This document shows positions 17,804 through 42,493 of a stretch of 51,554 nt of DNA, piece after piece; the stretch's first letter is position 1; each line of letters begins with the position of its first letter. The position numbers and the translations under genes were made by a program. The notes beneath the pieces were generated by a model. That model did no database searches and was not told where the DNA came from. It saw only the letters and a list, made by a program, of their open reading frames with translations. Source of the DNA: a bacterium (GTDB taxonomy: Bacteria > UBA10199 > JAIBAG01); contig JAIBAG010000018.1 in NCBI GenBank assembly GCA_019695305.1, forward strand, positions 1 to 51,554. Reading direction: 5' to 3'.

Positions 17804-18187
17804 CTACTGCATCACACCGGGTTTTATAAGCGAAAACCTGGCTATTTCGGCATCAAACATATTTCCTTGCGCATCAATCATTTGATACGTACCTTGCATG
17901 GTACCAACCGGGGTTTTAAGCGGGCAAAAACTACTATATTCAAATGATTCACCAGGATTTAATACCGGCTGATAACCCACTACACCCGCACCTTTTACTT
18001 CTTCGCGTCCACCGTTACCGTCACTAATAATCCAATGACGGCTAATGAGCTGCGCCGGGATATTGCCTTCGTTGGTTATGGTGACATGATAGGTAAAAAA
18101 ATAATGGTCATCCTCGGGAACCGATTCGTCTTCTACATAATGGGCATTAACACGTACGCGTATATGGCGGGTAATAGCTTCACTCAT
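17804..18187 (-). CDS. apaG: ApaG domain protein
   Basis: 127 aa, full length for ApaG, a cytosolic immunoglobulin-like protein linked with Co2+/Mg2+ resistance and Ap4A metabolism in enterics, of unclear biochemistry. Typical sequence includes [44 protein letters not shown] and MQGTYQMID. It starts 8 bp inside the end of the thioredoxin-domain gene, so the two are translated together. No apaH neighbour is present. Confidence 0.93.
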
Positions 18188-20312
18188 AGGGTTTTACTTT
18201 TTCTAATTGCTTTAACACATCTATTCCGTTGATTGTGGGTGCATTACATACCGATTTTTCACAAACATAGTAAGTGGTTTTTCCGTCCAGAGCCATGCGC
18301 CCCTTCATTAAAGCTAAATTTTCATTACTTTTATTTTTACTCACAACCATAATATTAGGATAAAAACCCCTGTTGATGGCTTCTAATATATATTGATCGT
18401 CCCCAACAATAACAATTTCTTTAGAGATATCTGTCTCATAATCAAACGCCAGCATAGCCATGGCAAAACCGGCCGGGTATTTAATAAGTTTATCACCCAA
18501 GCTTTTAAACATTGCGTCTACTTTAGTTTGATACTCACCATTACCCGTAAGCGGCACTAATTTAACCAAATTATAAAGCGCTACCGAGTTGGCCGACGGT
18601 GTAGCATTATCGTGTAATTCCTTGCTGCGAATAACAAGCGAGCTATCATCGCCCCGTCCATAAAAATAATTACCGCTTTTTTCATCCCAAAATGATGCAT
18701 CCATACGGCTTTGTAAACTTTGGGCCCAGCTCATCCAACGGGCATCGCCATCGGCCAAAAAGAGTTCGATGAGCCCCCAATTTAAATAGGCATAATCGGA
18801 TAACATGGCATGAACACGCGCATCTTTATCGCGATAACGACGTAAAAGTTTATCGTGTTTATCGAGATGAGTTTGAATAAAAGATGCCGCCTTTTGTGCC
18901 GCCTCTAAATAACGCTCATCGCCCAAAACCGCATAAGCCTTGGCCATGGCGGCAATCATAAGACCATTCCAATCAGTTAAAATTTTATCGTCTTTATGGG
19001 GATGAATTCTTTTTTCACGCACCTCAAATAATTTTTGAAGCGCTGCTTTTAATGGGCCGCTTTGTTTAGAATCCCAAATTAAATTATCGGTAGCATACAA
19101 AATATTTCCACCTTCTATACCTTCTTCAAATTCTGCATGATAATTTCCATTTTGTTGTACATGGTATGCCTTAACAATAGCCTCATACTCTTGATCGGAA
19201 AGAATTTGCTGTAACTCCGCTATTGTCCATAAATAAAACTTTCCTTCCACGCCTTCACTATCGGCATCTTCGGCCGAATAAAAGCCCCCTTCGGAGCTTG
19301 TCATATCGCGCAACACATAATCGAGTGTTTCTCTGGCAATTATTTTGTAATGTTCTTTTTTTGTAAGCTGATACGCTTCTAAATAAGTAAGTGTAAGCAG
19401 AGCATTATCGTAGAGCATTTTTTCAAAGTGTGGCACCAACCATTTGGTATCGGTAGAATAACGGGCAAAACCGCCACCCACATGATCGTACATTCCACCT
19501 TGTGCCATTTTATCGAGCGTTAACTCTACCATATGCAACGATTCGGCATTACCCGTGCGACGAAAAATGCGCATCAGTAAATTTAAATCGATACTACGCG
19601 GAAATTTGGGGGCTCCCGAATAACCACCATAAACCGGATCAAAACGCGCTCCAAAAACATGCAGCGCCTCCATAAAGGCTTTTTGTGTGGGTAAATTTTG
19701 GGAAGAAGTACTATCGGCCGATAAATGCGCGGTAAGATCATTGGCCGTTTTAAAAATTTCATCTTTTTGTGTAAGCCAGGCTTCCTGAATTTTTTCCAAA
19801 ACCTTTAAAAACTGATCTTTCCAAAAAAAGGTTCCGCCATAAAAAGGTTTTAAATCGGGTGTTAAAAACACGCTCATAGGCCATCCGCCCCGCCCCGTCA
19901 TAGCCACTACCGCATCCATATAAATTTGATCCACATCGGGGCGTTCTTCGCGATCTACTTTAATGGCAATGTAATCTTTGTTTAAAGCATCTGCCACTTC
20001 TTGCTTTTCAAATGAATCGTGCTCCATCACGTGGCACCAATGGCAAGTGCTATAACCAATACTTAAAAATATGAGTTTGTTTTGCTTTTTTGCCGCCTCA
20101 AAAGCCTGTGGCCCCCACGCATACCAGTGCACGGGATTATCTTTGTGTTGAAGTAAATACGGACTTTTTTCTTTGGCTAAATGGTTCATGGGTTTAGAGC
20201 CTTCTTCTTTGATGTGATTCACCTCTCCTCCATAGTAGCGCCAGGCCATGTAAAAGGTAAGAATGAGCACTACTAATCCAACCAAGCGTGAAGGATGAGT
20301 TTTTTGTGTCAC
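18180..20312 (-). CDS. Thioredoxin-domain protein of the SSP411/YyaL (DUF255) family, probably membrane-anchored
   Basis: The N-terminal DUF255 domain is plain ([20 protein letters not shown], then [10 protein letters not shown] with a CxxC thioredoxin motif, [22 protein letters not shown]), followed by a glycan-epimerase-like alpha/alpha barrel. The start is uncertain. The conserved domain begins near the ATG at 20189. Upstream in frame lies a hydrophobic segment ([16 protein letters not shown]) that would make a signal anchor if translation starts at the GTG at 20312, which I chose. A still longer TTG start at 20378 would fall inside the structured element at 20370-20488 and is unlikely. 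None has a strong ribosome site. The function of the family is poorly known. It overlaps apaG. Confidence 0.85.
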
Positions 20313-20369
20313 CGGATGGGTGTAACTGATGATGCTAAAAATGTCGAGAAAAGACAAAAGAATCGGAGA

Positions 20370-20488
20370 GCCGTTCAAGAAAGGCTCAGATGCTAGGCGC
20401 CCTGACGAAGGGACCGGAGACGTACTGAAAAGTACGTTGAGGATTCCTGAGGAAGGGCAACAACGCAGATGGTCCTTTATTGGACGGC
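20370..20488 (+). ncRNA. Candidate structured RNA, multi-branched with GAAA tetraloop hairpin
   Basis: By hand-pairing: an outer stem GCCGTTCAA (20370-20378) with TTGGACGGC (20480-20488, one G-U); an inner stem AAGGGACC (20408-20415) with GGTCCTTT (20471-20478, one G-U); a hairpin ACGTACT-GAAA-AGTACGT (20420-20437); and TTCC-TGA-GGAA (20444-20454). A GNRA loop on the plus strand and a terminator just downstream at 20502 favour plus-strand transcription. GAGCC (20368-20372) can also pair with GGCTC (20383-20387), competing with the outer stem. I have an impression of similar sequences in other genomes but cannot name a family. It could instead be a mobile palindrome. Confidence 0.5.
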
Positions 20489-36408: not shown

Positions 36409-37818
36409 CTAGTCGGCCGGAACACAACTACCGGCAGCTTCAAACACTAGATATTGCAATACACGTTCCTGAGGCCAAAAGCCGGTAGTAGGACAAGTTT
36501 CGGCTGTGTGATAAGAACTATAAATAATACAACCATCCCCTTCCACTTTACTGGCGGTCAATGGGCGTTCTGACTCTACACTACCAACACTTACGTTGCC
36601 TTCAATCCATACAAAAGTATCCTCACCATCATGAACCGTGTCCATAGCCGCCCATCCAGCTAAAAAGTCTCCAATTCTAATGGTATCTTCACTAAGTAAA
36701 TTGTCAGAGCCTGAATTACCGTTCACAGTTGTATCACAACTATTTCCCGGAGCATCATCAAAATCTATCGTATTTGTTGTAATAGCACTGCTAGTAATCC
36801 AGCTAATTAGGCCAGGATCATTAATTGTGGCATTTGAAACAATACCGTCATCCCCATCCCACGCTTCGTTATAATTGCCGGGCGTAGCAGCATCATCTGG
36901 ATCATCTTTAAATTTCATAAAATTTGGGAATGACTGCTCAATAAAATCGTAGGAACGATCGGTCACATACAAGCGCCCACCGTTATTGACATAAGCTTGT
37001 ATATTATCTACCTGAGTTTCAGTAAAATCGCGTGAAACAGCATGAGAGTGGGCTTTTATTAAAGATCCACTAACCGCAGCATCAAGACTCTGATCCGCAC
37101 CACAATTTATAAAAATTATATCATAATCATCCATAACATCTGCGCTATCAAATAGAGTGTTGCACGTTTGATAGTCATCCGCATTGTCTAATAAAGAAAT
37201 TTCATAATCGGTCAAACCACCACAAGTGTAAATATCAAAAGTTTCTGTTCCCACAACCAAAGAACCGGCCTCATCCACATCGCCATATCCTAGTTTAGCC
37301 AATACATTTTCAATTTGGTCATAAGCTCCGGTAACAACAGCTATACTGATAGCATTTGCTCCACTAGAAGCACCACTAATATTAGCCACACAATTATCTG
37401 GATCATCACAATCTAAATCAGCCGTGCCACATTGAGCTCCTTTACAAAAGGTGATCGTTGTAGCTGAAGTATCACAATCTGTGGTCCCCAAAACATAAGT
37501 ACCATCAGCACAAGTACAAGTACTTCCACAAACTGTTCCACTAGGATCTTCACAGGTCACTTCCCCTTCGTCACAGGTAGCAGTAATTGTACGAGTTACA
37601 ACGCCTTTATTTTTTGTTACTTTGGAAATTGAGGAAGCCGTATCATCAATATAAACAACTGCACCCGAAATAGGATCGGTACCGTTAGGCGCATATACCG
37701 TTCCCCGTACTTCAGTTGCCCCATTTAAACCACTGGCTGAACCACCTGACGAGCTAGAACTACAAGCTGCAAATGCAACAAGAAAACAAACTGATAAAAT
37801 TTGTGCTATTTTCTTCAT
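36409..37818 (-). CDS. Large cysteine-rich lipoprotein with Ig/carboxypeptidase-like and GATase-like regions
   Basis: 469 aa. A lipoprotein signal peptide ends in the lipobox FAAC (Cys at 19), followed by Ser/Gly. An early domain (VRGTVYAPNGTDPISGAVVYID) looks like a carboxypeptidase-regulatory or beta-sandwich repeat. A Cys-rich stretch (residues about 80-140) includes CGSTCTCADGTY. The second half (DYDIIFINCGAD, VNNGGRLYVTDRSYDFIEQ, IIYSSYHT) has the pattern of a ThuA/glutamine-amidotransferase-like fold without an obvious catalytic Cys. Probably outer-membrane attached; role unknown. Its transcript ends at the hairpin before bioF. Confidence 0.78.
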   Translation of the reverse strand: MKKIAQILSVCFLVAFAACSSSSSGGSASGLNGATEVRGTVYAPNGTDPISGAVVYIDDTASSISKVTKNKGVVTRTITATCDEGEVTCEDPSGTVCGSTCTCADGTYVLGTTDCDTSATTITFCKGAQCGTADLDCDDPDNCVANISGASSGANAISIAVVTGAYDQIENVLAKLGYGDVDEAGSLVVGTETFDIYTCGGLTDYEISLLDNADDYQTCNTLFDSADVMDDYDIIFINCGADQSLDAAVSGSLIKAHSHAVSRDFTETQVDNIQAYVNNGGRLYVTDRSYDFIEQSFPNFMKFKDDPDDAATPGNYNEAWDGDDGIVSNATINDPGLISWITSSAITTNTIDFDDAPGNSCDTTVNGNSGSDNLLSEDTIRIGDFLAGWAAMDTVHDGEDTFVWIEGNVSVGSVESERPLTASKVEGDGCIIYSSYHTAETCPTTGFWPQERVLQYLVFEAAGSCVPAD

Positions 37819-38016: not shown

Positions 38017-40338
38017 CTATTTTAACAAATCCACAAGAACATCCAGTGGATCATTTATATTTATATCAAAAGTGCCATGTAAATATCCCTGGCTCCATAC
38101 ACAATTCTGAAGCACGGGAATAATATATTCCTTTGCTACTTTTTTAATATCGCTTTTCACATCAGAATCCAGATTATTCTTAATCCAACCAAACAGACTC
38201 CCTAATACTTCATCTGCTTCCATCTCCTGGCCTTCTTGCTTAAAATGAACGAATAAAAACATATTGGTAAAAATAACAATCATCGCACGGGCCATTTTTT
38301 CGTGCGGATAAACAACGGCAGGGTCAGCATCAAAAAACTCATCCGATAAATTCAACAAATCTGTAGTATTCATTGCGTTCAGCAATAAAGCATAATTCCT
38401 TACAGGTGAAAACCTTTCCAAGTCTGGTACCTGCGAGTCCTCCAAGCCATACAACACATCACATTCCTCATATAAACCTTGTCGTAACTCAAGTTCTTTT
38501 GCCCTCAAAAAATCCTGTCCAAAATACTCTACCATCACCGCTAACCGATCTACGGGGAATTCCTGTAACGATATTCCTTCATCGAGTAAGACTAAATAAT
38601 CAAAAATTTCATTTAAATCTTCAAAAGATAAATAAGGCCTGATCTTTTTAAAAACAATGCGGAGCATATCATAATTATTGGCATCTATCATGACTATTAA
38701 ACCATCCACCAATTCACCGCTTGTAAAATTAGAAAAATTATCCTGAATTGAAAATAATAGTGCAATTGCATTTTGCCGTATCAAAATATTTGAATTATGT
38801 GTCATGGCCTTTATTTCAGTACTATATTTTTTTGCTATTTGTTCTGCCTGTGAAATACCATAACGAGTATTTATCAATAACCATTCCAAACCCTTTCTTT
38901 TTTGGGCATTACTCCCCTCACCCAACCACCAACCCACTTTCTCCCAGTTTTCGGCACTTATTAAGTTCCCATGATCTTTAAAAGTACAATCCAATAAACT
39001 ACTCCCAAATGTTGATCTACCATCGTCGTTTTCAAGAGCCAATGACAGGTAATACTGGAAATCATTAGGTTTCCAAAAAAGCTTCCCAAAATTATTGGCT
39101 GCACCTTCTATCAGCATCCATTCTTCAATCCCCATCATGTACCCATCTTCCACCATAGTTCTCTTTAACAAGTTCACAAAAGTTTCATCAATCAAACTAG
39201 CCTCTTCGAGAGGCAATACAGTTTGATCTTTTAAATATTTACTTAGATAGCTTCCTATATATCTCAACCCGGCCCACATATTATGGGAATTGTCTGCAAG
39301 AGCAATATTTTCACAAGCCACCTGCAAAGGGCTTAATGCCTGAAACATCCCCAACTCCTGCGTAGGATGATTCCGGTCCAAAATAATGCTATTATGGCCA
39401 CTGTTATCAAAAACCATAACCGTGGGATAACTCATAACACCATAATATTGTGCCAATGCTTCGTTTTCTGTGCGTAAAAACAAAACTTGCCCCTGAGCCT
39501 GCTCGGCCATTACTGCAAATTGGGGACGATATTCCTTGCATGGCCCACACCAACTGGCTGAAAAGGTCACCAAAGCAAATTGTCCAGGTTTAAGCCTGCC
39601 AATTTGCGTATTCAAATCATCTGCCGTTTTCACATCCACAACTTGTGCGGGGAAATCCGGCGCCCCTGCCTGAATATATCCATCAGTAACAGCCACAAAA
39701 GAATGAGACACTCCAATGTTAAATCCCTCTGCATAAGCATATCTTTCCCGAAAACTGATTTCTCCATCACCATTCTGATCAGGTACATTATTAGCCCAAA
39801 AATATGGCGCAAAAAAGCCACAACTAGCCTCTTCATTTTCACTGGCTGAAAATGCTAAAAAGGTCCTTGGATCATCGGCAAAAAAAGTGCGCGCCCATCC
39901 GGAAAAGCATTGATCCATAACAATAGTACGTTGATGATAAGGAACGACATCAATCCACTCATTTATATCTTGATTAAAGCCACCAGCCAAACCATGACCT
40001 GTATTATAAAATAACAATTCATCATTAGTACGTGCATAAGTTTTTAACTCACTTAAAACACGTCTTATATTTTCTTGTGATGCCGGGATATAATGATCAA
40101 CATCTGTAGGCTTTTTAACGGAGACAACAATCACCTCATATCCATCATCATACAAAGCAGTAGAGCTCATCTCTACATTATTCACATGCCTTTCTTCTGA
40201 ATCGAGATTTAATATAACAGCAATTTTTTTTGGATTAGTATCGGTACGATTTTTAAAAAAATCAAACGGATCAGCTGAAACGGAATCTACAAATGGATTC
40301 GGTAGTCTTCTTGTAATGGCATCCCACCAATTTCCCAT
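38017..40338 (-). CDS. Caspase-like / EF-hand / thioredoxin fusion protein
   Basis: 773 aa without signal peptide or membrane segment, so probably cytosolic. Residues about 37-220 have the clan CD (caspase/legumain) pattern: a strand KKIAVILNLD, His115 in FYNTGHG and Cys144 in TIVMDQCFSG, each after a hydrophobic strand. A canonical EF-hand loop (DQNGDGEISFRE, 187-198) lies in or just after it. Residues about 235-330 form a thioredoxin domain with the active site WCGPC (264-267) and cis-Pro305. The remaining 440 residues look helical and repeat-like (HEAT/ARM type). I infer a calcium- and redox-responsive cysteine peptidase. It lies inside a 40-bp direct repeat next to sctV. The domain combination is one I do not know. 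Confidence 0.85.
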   Translation of the reverse strand: MGNWWDAITRRLPNPFVDSVSADPFDFFKNRTDTNPKKIAVILNLDSEERHVNNVEMSSTALYDDGYEVIVVSVKKPTDVDHYIPASQENIRRVLSELKTYARTNDELLFYNTGHGLAGGFNQDINEWIDVVPYHQRTIVMDQCFSGWARTFFADDPRTFLAFSASENEEASCGFFAPYFWANNVPDQNGDGEISFRERYAYAEGFNIGVSHSFVAVTDGYIQAGAPDFPAQVVDVKTADDLNTQIGRLKPGQFALVTFSASWCGPCKEYRPQFAVMAEQAQGQVLFLRTENEALAQYYGVMSYPTVMVFDNSGHNSIILDRNHPTQELGMFQALSPLQVACENIALADNSHNMWAGLRYIGSYLSKYLKDQTVLPLEEASLIDETFVNLLKRTMVEDGYMMGIEEWMLIEGAANNFGKLFWKPNDFQYYLSLALENDDGRSTFGSSLLDCTFKDHGNLISAENWEKVGWWLGEGSNAQKRKGLEWLLINTRYGISQAEQIAKKYSTEIKAMTHNSNILIRQNAIALLFSIQDNFSNFTSGELVDGLIVMIDANNYDMLRIVFKKIRPYLSFEDLNEIFDYLVLLDEGISLQEFPVDRLAVMVEYFGQDFLRAKELELRQGLYEECDVLYGLEDSQVPDLERFSPVRNYALLLNAMNTTDLLNLSDEFFDADPAVVYPHEKMARAMIVIFTNMFLFVHFKQEGQEMEADEVLGSLFGWIKNNLDSDVKSDIKKVAKEYIIPVLQNCVWSQGYLHGTFDININDPLDVLVDLLK

Positions 40339-40357: not shown

Positions 40358-42493
40358 TTATGAAGCCACCAAGCGCGGCAAGCTCACGCGGGCAATGGGC
40401 TGAATACGCAGGTTTTCGGAAAGCTCTTGGTACGACAAGACGGAGAGCTGAGGAAATTCCAGCTCAATAATTTTACGGAAATAACGGCGGATTTCGGCCG
40501 TGGTTAATATTACCGGCGGACGAGCACCCGGAGGAAAAGGATGGGAGGCAATTTCTTTACCTACATTTTCAATAATCTCCTGCGTAATTTCGGGATCGAG
40601 CGCTAAATAATTCCCTTTCTCAGTGGTACGAATGGCATCGCGCACCATGTCTTCGATGCGAGGATCTAATAAATATACTGCCAGCGCATTACCATGGCCC
40701 GAATATTTAAACGTCACATAGCGTTTTAAACCGGCACGCACATGCTCGGTGAGCATGAGAGTATTACGTTCAATTTCGGCCCATTGCGCGAGTGTAGAAA
40801 AAATATTTTTTAAATCGCGGATAGATACTTCTTCCTGCACCAAACGCTGAAAAATTTCGGCTAATTGTAATACGGTAATAACTTTAGGCACTAATTCTTT
40901 CACCAAAGCCGGGTGCGATTTTTCAAGTTCATTCAAAAGGGTTTGTACTTCCTGCAAGCCCAAGAATTCATGTGCATGCTTACGCAACACATACGAGAGA
41001 TGCAAAATTAAATATTCCGAAATATCCCACATTCTAAAACCAGCCTGTACCGCCACATCTTTATATTTATCGGATACCCAGGTAACAATAGAACCATCAA
41101 TAGGATGAATAGTTTCCTTTCCGGTAATATTAAAAAGCTGCAATTGCTCTAAAGGCTCGCCCACTAAAATACAGCCCTGCATAATTTTGCCCCGCGCCAC
41201 TGGCACTTCGTTAATATTAATCACATACGCATCGGGCTCCATGTCCACTGTTTGCCCACGCACTTGGATTCCGGGGAAGTTAACGCCCAATTCATAGTAT
41301 AAGCCGTGACGAAGTAACGGAATAAGCTCGTTTATAAAGCGGCCCCCGTCTTTACTGTCGTCTACAAAGGGAATAATATTACTACCCACTTCAAGCGAAA
41401 TAGGCGACGGCATAATAAAGGGCAATTGATCGCCATGCTTTTCGATAGCCTTTTTAACTTTTTCTTCTTTAGGCTGATCAATAATTTTTTGAATTTTCTC
41501 TTCCTTTTTACGCGTACTGTAAAAAGCATAAGCGCCCAGTAATAAACCTAAAAAGATAAACGGTAATTTAGGAAGCCCGGGCACCAGCGCCATACCCAAG
41601 AGCAGCACTGAGGCAATCATAAATACTTTGGGATAAGCCGTAATTTGACCAATAACATCTTTACCCAAGCTTGCTTCTTTATTATCGGAAGACACACGGG
41701 TAACCACAATACCGGCCGCCATCGAAATAATAAACGCAGGCAACATACTGATAATACCATCACCAATGGAAAGGATGGAGTATGTATGCGCCGCTTTTTC
41801 AAAACTCATATCCCGCTGCATCACACCAATAACAAGGCCACCAATTAAGTTGATGACCGTAATAATAATACCCGCAATGGCATCACCCTTTACAAACTTC
41901 ATGGCACCATCCATGGCTCCGTACATTTGCGATTCGCGTTGTAATTGGCTACGGCGCGCTTTGGCTTCGTCCATGGTAATGGTGCCCGCGCGTAAGTCGG
42001 CATCAATACTCATTTGTTTACCCGGCATAGCATCCAAGGTAAAACGGGCCGCCACTTCGGATACACGCTCGGCACCTTTGGCCACCACAATAAAGTTAAC
42101 CAGGGTAATAATCACAAACAAAACAAGCCCCACCACAAGCTGGCCTCTGGCCACGAAATTACCAAATGCCTCAATCACCTCACCGGCATAGCCTTCGGAT
42201 AAAATGAGACGGGTAGATGAAATGTTAAGAGCCAAGCGATACAAAGTTGAAATAAGCAAAATGGTGGGAAATGAAGCTAACTTTAATCCGTCTGAAATAT
42301 AGAGCGATACAAGAAGAATGATAACGCCTAACGAAATAGAAATAGTAAGACAAATATCCAGTAACCAGGGTGGCAACGGGATAATGATCATCGACAACAC
42401 GCTGATAACAAGACCCGCCAAGATGAGATCGCTGTACTTCGTAATCAAACCATTAATATCATCCACACCTAATTTAGAAAAAAGCCAATTCAT
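40358..42493 (-). CDS. sctV: Type III secretion export gate protein SctV (FlhA family)
   Basis: 711 aa. The N-terminal half has about eight membrane segments with the FHIPEP core (FPTILLISTLYRLALNISSTRLIL, GAERVSEVAARFTLDAMPGKQMSIDADLRAG). The C-terminal half is the cytosolic nonameric ring domain. Residues such as YGAMDGAMKFVKGDAIAG and the ending LSYQELSENLRIQPIARVSL favour the non-flagellar SctV branch over FlhA, which I judge from memory. It would form the export gate of an injectisome. No other type III genes are in the window, so it is either isolated or at a cluster edge. Its last 40 bp are duplicated at 37959-37998. Confidence 0.85.
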   Translation of the reverse strand: MNWLFSKLGVDDINGLITKYSDLILAGLVISVLSMIIIPLPPWLLDICLTISISLGVIILLVSLYISDGLKLASFPTILLISTLYRLALNISSTRLILSEGYAGEVIEAFGNFVARGQLVVGLVLFVIITLVNFIVVAKGAERVSEVAARFTLDAMPGKQMSIDADLRAGTITMDEAKARRSQLQRESQMYGAMDGAMKFVKGDAIAGIIITVINLIGGLVIGVMQRDMSFEKAAHTYSILSIGDGIISMLPAFIISMAAGIVVTRVSSDNKEASLGKDVIGQITAYPKVFMIASVLLLGMALVPGLPKLPFIFLGLLLGAYAFYSTRKKEEKIQKIIDQPKEEKVKKAIEKHGDQLPFIMPSPISLEVGSNIIPFVDDSKDGGRFINELIPLLRHGLYYELGVNFPGIQVRGQTVDMEPDAYVININEVPVARGKIMQGCILVGEPLEQLQLFNITGKETIHPIDGSIVTWVSDKYKDVAVQAGFRMWDISEYLILHLSYVLRKHAHEFLGLQEVQTLLNELEKSHPALVKELVPKVITVLQLAEIFQRLVQEEVSIRDLKNIFSTLAQWAEIERNTLMLTEHVRAGLKRYVTFKYSGHGNALAVYLLDPRIEDMVRDAIRTTEKGNYLALDPEITQEIIENVGKEIASHPFPPGARPPVILTTAEIRRYFRKIIELEFPQLSVLSYQELSENLRIQPIARVSLPRLVAS
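40365..40404. repeat. 40-bp direct repeat, right copy (inside the sctV 3' end)
   Basis: Covers the last codons of sctV and is identical to 37959-37998. It marks the right end of the segment carrying the caspase-like gene. Confidence 0.92.

Follow-up and report, generated by a model that had tools for sequence, protein, structure and literature searches.

A legumain-like clan CD peptidase domain joined to thioredoxin in proteins of an uncultured bacterial class

We found that one gene in a bacterial DNA stretch of 51,554 nucleotides (the whole stretch analysed, called the window below) encodes a clan CD peptidase domain, a thioredoxin domain and a helical C-terminal part in a single chain. The bare statement that a clan CD-fold protein is fused here to thioredoxin is close to certain, and the peptidase-thioredoxin architecture is well supported. 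Overall, we read the product as a cytosolic clan CD cysteine endopeptidase that carries thioredoxin in cis, has a helical arm for protein binding and is controlled by redox state, and we give this reading a probability of about 0.45. The new element is the combination of a known fold with a known redox domain, and each part was already known. In the literature searched, we did not find a description of a caspase- or legumain-type peptidase fused to thioredoxin. Similarly, the word "thioredoxin" does not occur in the available portion of a survey of caspase homologues in prokaryotes from 2012 (PMC3501461). The gene and its main parts are as follows.

38017..40338, minus strand: whole gene, 773 amino acids, clan CD peptidase plus thioredoxin plus helical C-terminal part
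39655..40251, minus strand: clan CD (legumain/caspase-fold) peptidase domain, residues 30-228, placed by the AlphaFold2 model and the legumain match
39331..39651, minus strand: thioredoxin domain, about residues 230-336, with WCGPC at 263-267 and Pro305 (PF00085)
38020..39318, minus strand: helical C-terminal region, residues 341-773

The open reading frame starts with ATG, from which residues were counted, and AAGGAAG lies just 5′ of it. The motif positions were determined by script: TGHG at residues 113-116, DQCFSG at 142-147, DQNGDGEISFRE at 187-198, WCGPC at 263-267 and SYPT at 303-306. There are eight cysteines in the protein, at positions 144, 173, 264, 267, 342, 451, 626 and 746. The conservation tables hold 28 family proteins, and the table of proteins with a thioredoxin region holds 24, with L016, L024, L017 and L027 (no thioredoxin region) outside it. 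L077 and L083 were used as outgroup. Three contig-end fragments (G003:C52, G020:C107 and G043:C272) were left out of the tables, together with a thioredoxin-only relative (L025) and with L026, which is apparently the rest of the L011 gene. In addition, L010 stops at a contig end just after its CxxC.

The original prediction had assigned His115 (in GHG) and Cys144 (in DQCFSG) to a clan CD peptidase, and the model and the alignments both bear this out. The two residues lie as follows.

39991..39996, minus strand: catalytic His115-Gly116 of TGHG, aligned with legumain YFTNHG; His in 27 of 28 family proteins
39907..39909, minus strand: catalytic Cys144 of DQCFSG, aligned with legumain EACESG; Cys in 26 of 28 family proteins

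AlphaFold2 gave residues 30-228 a pLDDT of 83.6 and a pTM of 0.86. In Foldseek, legumain made up the best 24 matches, which were all those with E below 0.001 (E from 1.6e-6 to 6.7e-5). VIA-align superposed 187 of the 199 residues on human legumain (7fqi_B) with Z 17.9 and rmsd 2.7, and it gave Z 17.2 for metacaspase-4 and Z 16.2 for procaspase-6. Meanwhile, a profile of nine members (A4) matched legumain (3e-5), metacaspase-4 (3.4e-5) and GPI transamidase (0.001) in the PDB. Thus, the N-terminal domain is, in this model, a complete clan CD peptidase fold that is nearest to human legumain. Because AlphaFold2, Foldseek and VIA-align all led to a legumain-like fold, a prediction lacking the caspase core, which would have spoken against the original assignment, did not materialise. 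His and Cys are moreover conserved together in 26 of the 28 family proteins, and the dyad is kept in 23 of the 24 thioredoxin-bearing members.

Sequence models matched this part at low scores. In Pfam, the window protein alone gave no match for the caspase part at E up to 0.1, neither to Peptidase_C13 nor to Peptidase_C14. At the same limit, 11 of 20 aligned homologues matched Peptidase_C13 (best 2.8e-6), and eight of the 20 had a weak match to Peptidase_C14 (best 1.2e-4). The gathering score of PF01650 (22.8 bits) was passed by three homologues (G043, G012:C8 and G021) and not by the window protein, which reached 17.7 bits with the best caspase model of NCBIfam (cut-off 140).

Legumain (asparaginyl endopeptidase, MEROPS C13) is the nearest known system by both fold and profile, and its His and Cys stand at the same places. 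However, legumain is a vesicular enzyme with a pro-domain of its own, whereas the window protein lacks a visible signal peptide and has a fused thioredoxin, a helical arm and an acidic loop within its peptidase domain. GPI transamidase and peptide asparaginyl ligases were also matched by profile and fold, and two of the 28 family members have lost the dyad (QE in L006 and HN in L016). Both observations would suit a transpeptidase, a ligase or a pseudo-enzyme on the legumain fold, acting like GPI transamidase or the plant peptide ligases and not as a hydrolase. Yet His and Cys persist in all the remaining members, and we consider such a non-hydrolytic role improbable.

The original prediction had counted three domains, with a canonical calcium loop as the mark of an EF-hand domain besides the peptidase and the thioredoxin. 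The motif itself was confirmed in the peptidase domain.

39745..39780, minus strand: calcium-loop motif DQNGDGEISFRE (residues 187-198), within the peptidase domain; by eye count, 19 of 28 family proteins have D-x-[DN]-x-[DN]-G

These residues fit a 12-residue acidic EF-hand loop (D-x-N-x-D-G-x-I-x-x-x-E). In the chain, Cys144 is followed by a strand and a loop, next by this acidic loop and then by a helix. Among the eight members without CxxC, each of the two loop end residues is kept in seven. However, what we found is a single loop within the peptidase domain and not an independent, paired helix-loop-helix domain. EF-hand_5 was matched in four of 20 homologues (best E 0.023), and none was listed for the window protein. 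A loop of this kind, DxDxDG-like, stands at the same alignment position in L077 and L083, two caspase homologues of the same fold family. They differ from the window protein in having a signal peptide (by eye), no thioredoxin and no Cys173. Since the loop lies within the peptidase domain and also occurs in these thioredoxin-less proteins, it belongs to the peptidase part and there is no third domain. Thus, the peptidase and thioredoxin domains of the original scheme stand, and the EF-hand as a domain of its own does not.

According to the parts of the literature at hand, many metacaspases need calcium (PMC4357240), and seven archaeal orthocaspases bear EF-hand motifs (PMC6426788). Thus, going by the available part of the latter paper, other cases of a calcium motif near a caspase are already known. 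As a side observation, L077 (4753-6228, plus strand) is a second caspase homologue of this same genome and sits downstream of a sigma-factor-like gene.

The thioredoxin site predicted from WCGPC and a conserved proline proved sound. PF00085 matched with E 1.3e-12 and 48 bits against a cut-off of 23.5, over residues 251-315 (numbers one low, because the query lacked the first Met), and both WCGPC and Pro305 are in place. Free thioredoxins share these features and are separate proteins, whereas this one is fused. In an unrooted tree built from 23 fused thioredoxins and 12 free ones, the former formed one group apart from the latter (support 98/91, present in 200 of 200 bootstrap trees). This separation suggests a single origin of the fusion, and one fusion event is likely as the simplest account of the sequences. 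Another thioredoxin-fold protein, of the DUF255/DsbH type (PF03190), is encoded elsewhere in the window (18180-20378, minus strand).

Whether the two cysteine centres are conserved together was a check proposed with the original prediction. CxxC is present in 16 of the 24 proteins with a thioredoxin region, and all 16 keep the His/Cys dyad. The other eight have lost CxxC while seven of them retain the dyad, so thioredoxin chemistry is dispensable in some members. This loss would fit a different account, in which the thioredoxin serves clients of the protein in folding, reduction or docking and only shares a scaffold with a peptidase that it does not regulate. A relative with swapped order (L082, 5409-7031, plus strand) points the same way: it has a thioredoxin with CKAC before the peptidase and a degenerate thioredoxin-like part after it. 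However, in the fused members other than L082 the thioredoxin follows the peptidase at the same place, with a partly conserved linker, and every CxxC-bearing member keeps Cys173 as well as the dyad. We therefore regard a module for clients as rather unlikely. A gene for a protein of 1091 amino acids, of a kind that we did not recognise, lies directly upstream of L082.

For redox control of the peptidase, a second conserved cysteine of the peptidase domain is a candidate target.

39820..39822, minus strand: second conserved cysteine, Cys173, proposed redox site; Cys in 17 of 20 rows of alignment A1

Cys173 follows Cys144 by 29 residues, and legumain likewise has a second cysteine, some 30 residues beyond its catalytic Cys. 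In human legumain this is presumably Cys219, at +30 from catalytic Cys189, which we place near Cys173 by that distance. All 16 members with CxxC have Cys173, compared with one of the eight without it (Fisher p 2.3e-5, uncorrected for kinship). The sole CxxC-less keeper is L006, in which the His, the Cys and the first thioredoxin cysteine are lost. As a control, we compared 26 conserved peptidase columns, and Cys173 was the least kept of them in the eight CxxC-less proteins (1/8). Seven other conserved columns were kept in only two of the eight, and overall divergence could thus explain the link. Furthermore, a tree-aware test contained a single supported independent pair (p 1) and so had no power. 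Because divergence and kinship could yield the pattern, we use the coupling of Cys173 and CxxC as a hint only, and we grade the link as weak. The most telling row is L014, which keeps His, Cys and many conserved columns and lacks Cys173, CxxC and a further cysteine. This further cysteine, in the loop after the catalytic His, was found in 17 of 20 rows and is absent from the window protein. In the portions available of two studies of legumain, sulfenylation of human Cys219 inhibits processing and activity (PMC11939249), and the plant enzyme has a "redox-sensitive disulfide bridge" between Cys252 and Cys266 in the S3 pocket (PMC5995516).

The long helical region that the original prediction placed after the thioredoxin agrees with our structure prediction. 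About 430 residues after residue 335 or so were predicted to be mostly helical, with low to middling confidence, and Pfam gave no match for residues 341-773. The C-terminal parts differ among relatives, with HEAT in L033, L015 and L079 and TPR in L006. In addition, we noted two other kinds of relatives. L079 (2205-6332, minus strand) and L078 (1573-5457, minus strand), both from G011, have about 1300-1380 amino acids and combine a peptidase with a CxxC thioredoxin and with long arms that are helical or HEAT-like. L033, L012, L018, L080 and L081 have a beta-rich C-terminal stretch that resembles an outer-membrane barrel by eye, and it closes on Phe in L033 and L018. Pfam found no barrel in L033, L012, L018 or L080, and a signal peptide is not visible in most of these five.

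The original prediction had called for homologues with the same domain order, and these were found within one class, probably UBA10199 of GTDB. The class consists of uncultured "Deltaproteobacteria" MAGs, and the 46 genomes examined are also all those examined of the phylum. Peptidase and thioredoxin region occur together in 24 proteins from 17 of these genomes, and the 16 fused proteins with CxxC come from 12. Family matches at E up to 1e-11 occur in 20 of the 46. In a wider set of 385 genomes, 22 matched at E up to 1e-12, and 20 of them belong to the class. One of the two genomes outside matched in the peptidase part only and the other in the thioredoxin part only, and no peptidase-thioredoxin fusion was found outside the class among the 385 genomes. 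A single-sequence scan of genome contigs gave zero relatives. An alignment scan, which rests on one short pattern and may miss relatives, gave nine loci, eight in "Deltaproteobacteria" MAGs and one a weak match in Streptosporangiaceae; several of the source MAGs come from groundwater. Viral contigs gave one weak match, to the peptidase part only. In plasmids, tblastn found no place covering 80% of the query, and coverage was at most 41% in nine of the ten rows listed.

Next to the protease gene lies a gene of the type III export apparatus.

40358..42493, minus strand: sctV, type III export apparatus gene (TIGR01399, 796 bits against a cut-off of 692)

The protease gene follows sctV on the same strand after 19 bp, and SctV was found in 44 of the 46 genomes of the class (the model was over its cut-off in 38). 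These facts would suit an effector or substrate of the adjoining export apparatus. However, with SctV in nearly all genomes of the class and strong family matches in only 20, co-occurrence of the two cannot discriminate. In G004, a genome of the same order, sctV (83% identical) runs straight into bioF (59%), bioA (69%) and serS (68%), with neither the protease gene nor the lipoprotein gene, both of which stand between sctV and bioF in the window. No copy of the protease gene was found in five sctV neighbourhoods of other genomes (14-18 kb each). Furthermore, the G+C content of the protease gene is 37.9%, compared with 41-44% in its neighbours of the sctV/bioF block. Together with the gene-free block of G004, this makes the protease gene look like an insertion into a conserved block, so sctV is probably an incidental neighbour.

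The homologue genes are orphans, and the seven distinct neighbourhoods that we read are mostly housekeeping. In the neighbourhood of L032 there is a FlhB/SctU-like gene (by eye) about 7 kb off. The YscJ model gave 110-160 bits in 39 of the 46 genomes of the class, always short of the 162-bit cut-off, and only a FliF-sized match of 66 bits in this genome, where secretin matches were also below the YscC cut-off. In addition, most homologues reach their first strand within about 10 residues, so that an N-terminal secretion signal would hardly fit. The candidate effector role was weakened by the break of synteny between sctV and bioF, and no conserved linkage to export genes was found. We consider it very improbable. 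Transcription of the protease gene may well depend on that of sctV; the region has 16 promoter-like sites against 15.7 expected, which is chance level. As for the surroundings, the non-flagellar sctV stands alone beside biotin genes in the window, and a Cys-rich and Asp-rich lipoprotein (by eye) is encoded between the protease gene and bioF (36409-37818, minus strand).

Bacterial conflict systems include clan CD peptidases that carry repeat domains. This precedent and the variation of the C-terminal parts between members would agree with an anti-phage or programmed-death effector in which the helical part senses and the protease kills. However, PADLOC gave no match for the window protein (0 families) or for four family relatives tested, and we noticed no defence genes beside the homologues examined, so we see a slim chance of such an effector. 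PADLOC did give a weak caspase match for the outgroup protein L077 (E 6.7e-5).

Returning to the redox-controlled endopeptidase, the building of a thioredoxin into the protease chain suggests that the redox state of the cell may switch the protease. In favour of a cytosolic place, most homologues have no visible signal peptide and begin only about 10 residues ahead of the first strand. We propose that catalysis would be carried out by His115 and Cys144, and that the fused thioredoxin would keep Cys144, Cys173 or both reduced. Oxidation would silence the protease, and reducing power supplied via thioredoxin reductase would re-arm it. The acidic loop (187-198) may bind one Ca2+ and stabilise the region after the active-site strand, while the variable C-terminal part, which is HEAT or TPR in relatives, may choose the partner or substrate. 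In a more specific and tentative form, which we hold as doubtful, the protein would be a single-chain redox-gated protease with a built-in thioredoxin as on-switch, calcium as a second input through the catalytic-domain loop, and interchangeable repeat arms that pick the targets. Such a protease would probably act in a stress response inside the cell, with a role in cell death or defence as a more remote possibility.

For eukaryotes, it has been proposed that caspase-fold proteases are under thiol redox control, usually with thioredoxin as a separate partner. Metacaspases and orthocaspases (C14B) resemble the window protein in fold, and in the accessible part of one report the Chlamydomonas metacaspase MCA-II is described as being targeted by thioredoxin in trans (PMC10980519), whereas here thioredoxin is part of the chain. 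If the proposed control is true, the window protein would show, in a bacterium and within one chain, the thioredoxin control that is reported in trans for the eukaryotic metacaspase. In this family, a natural fusion with both active-site motifs intact in 16 proteins provides a one-protein system in which redox control could be tested directly.
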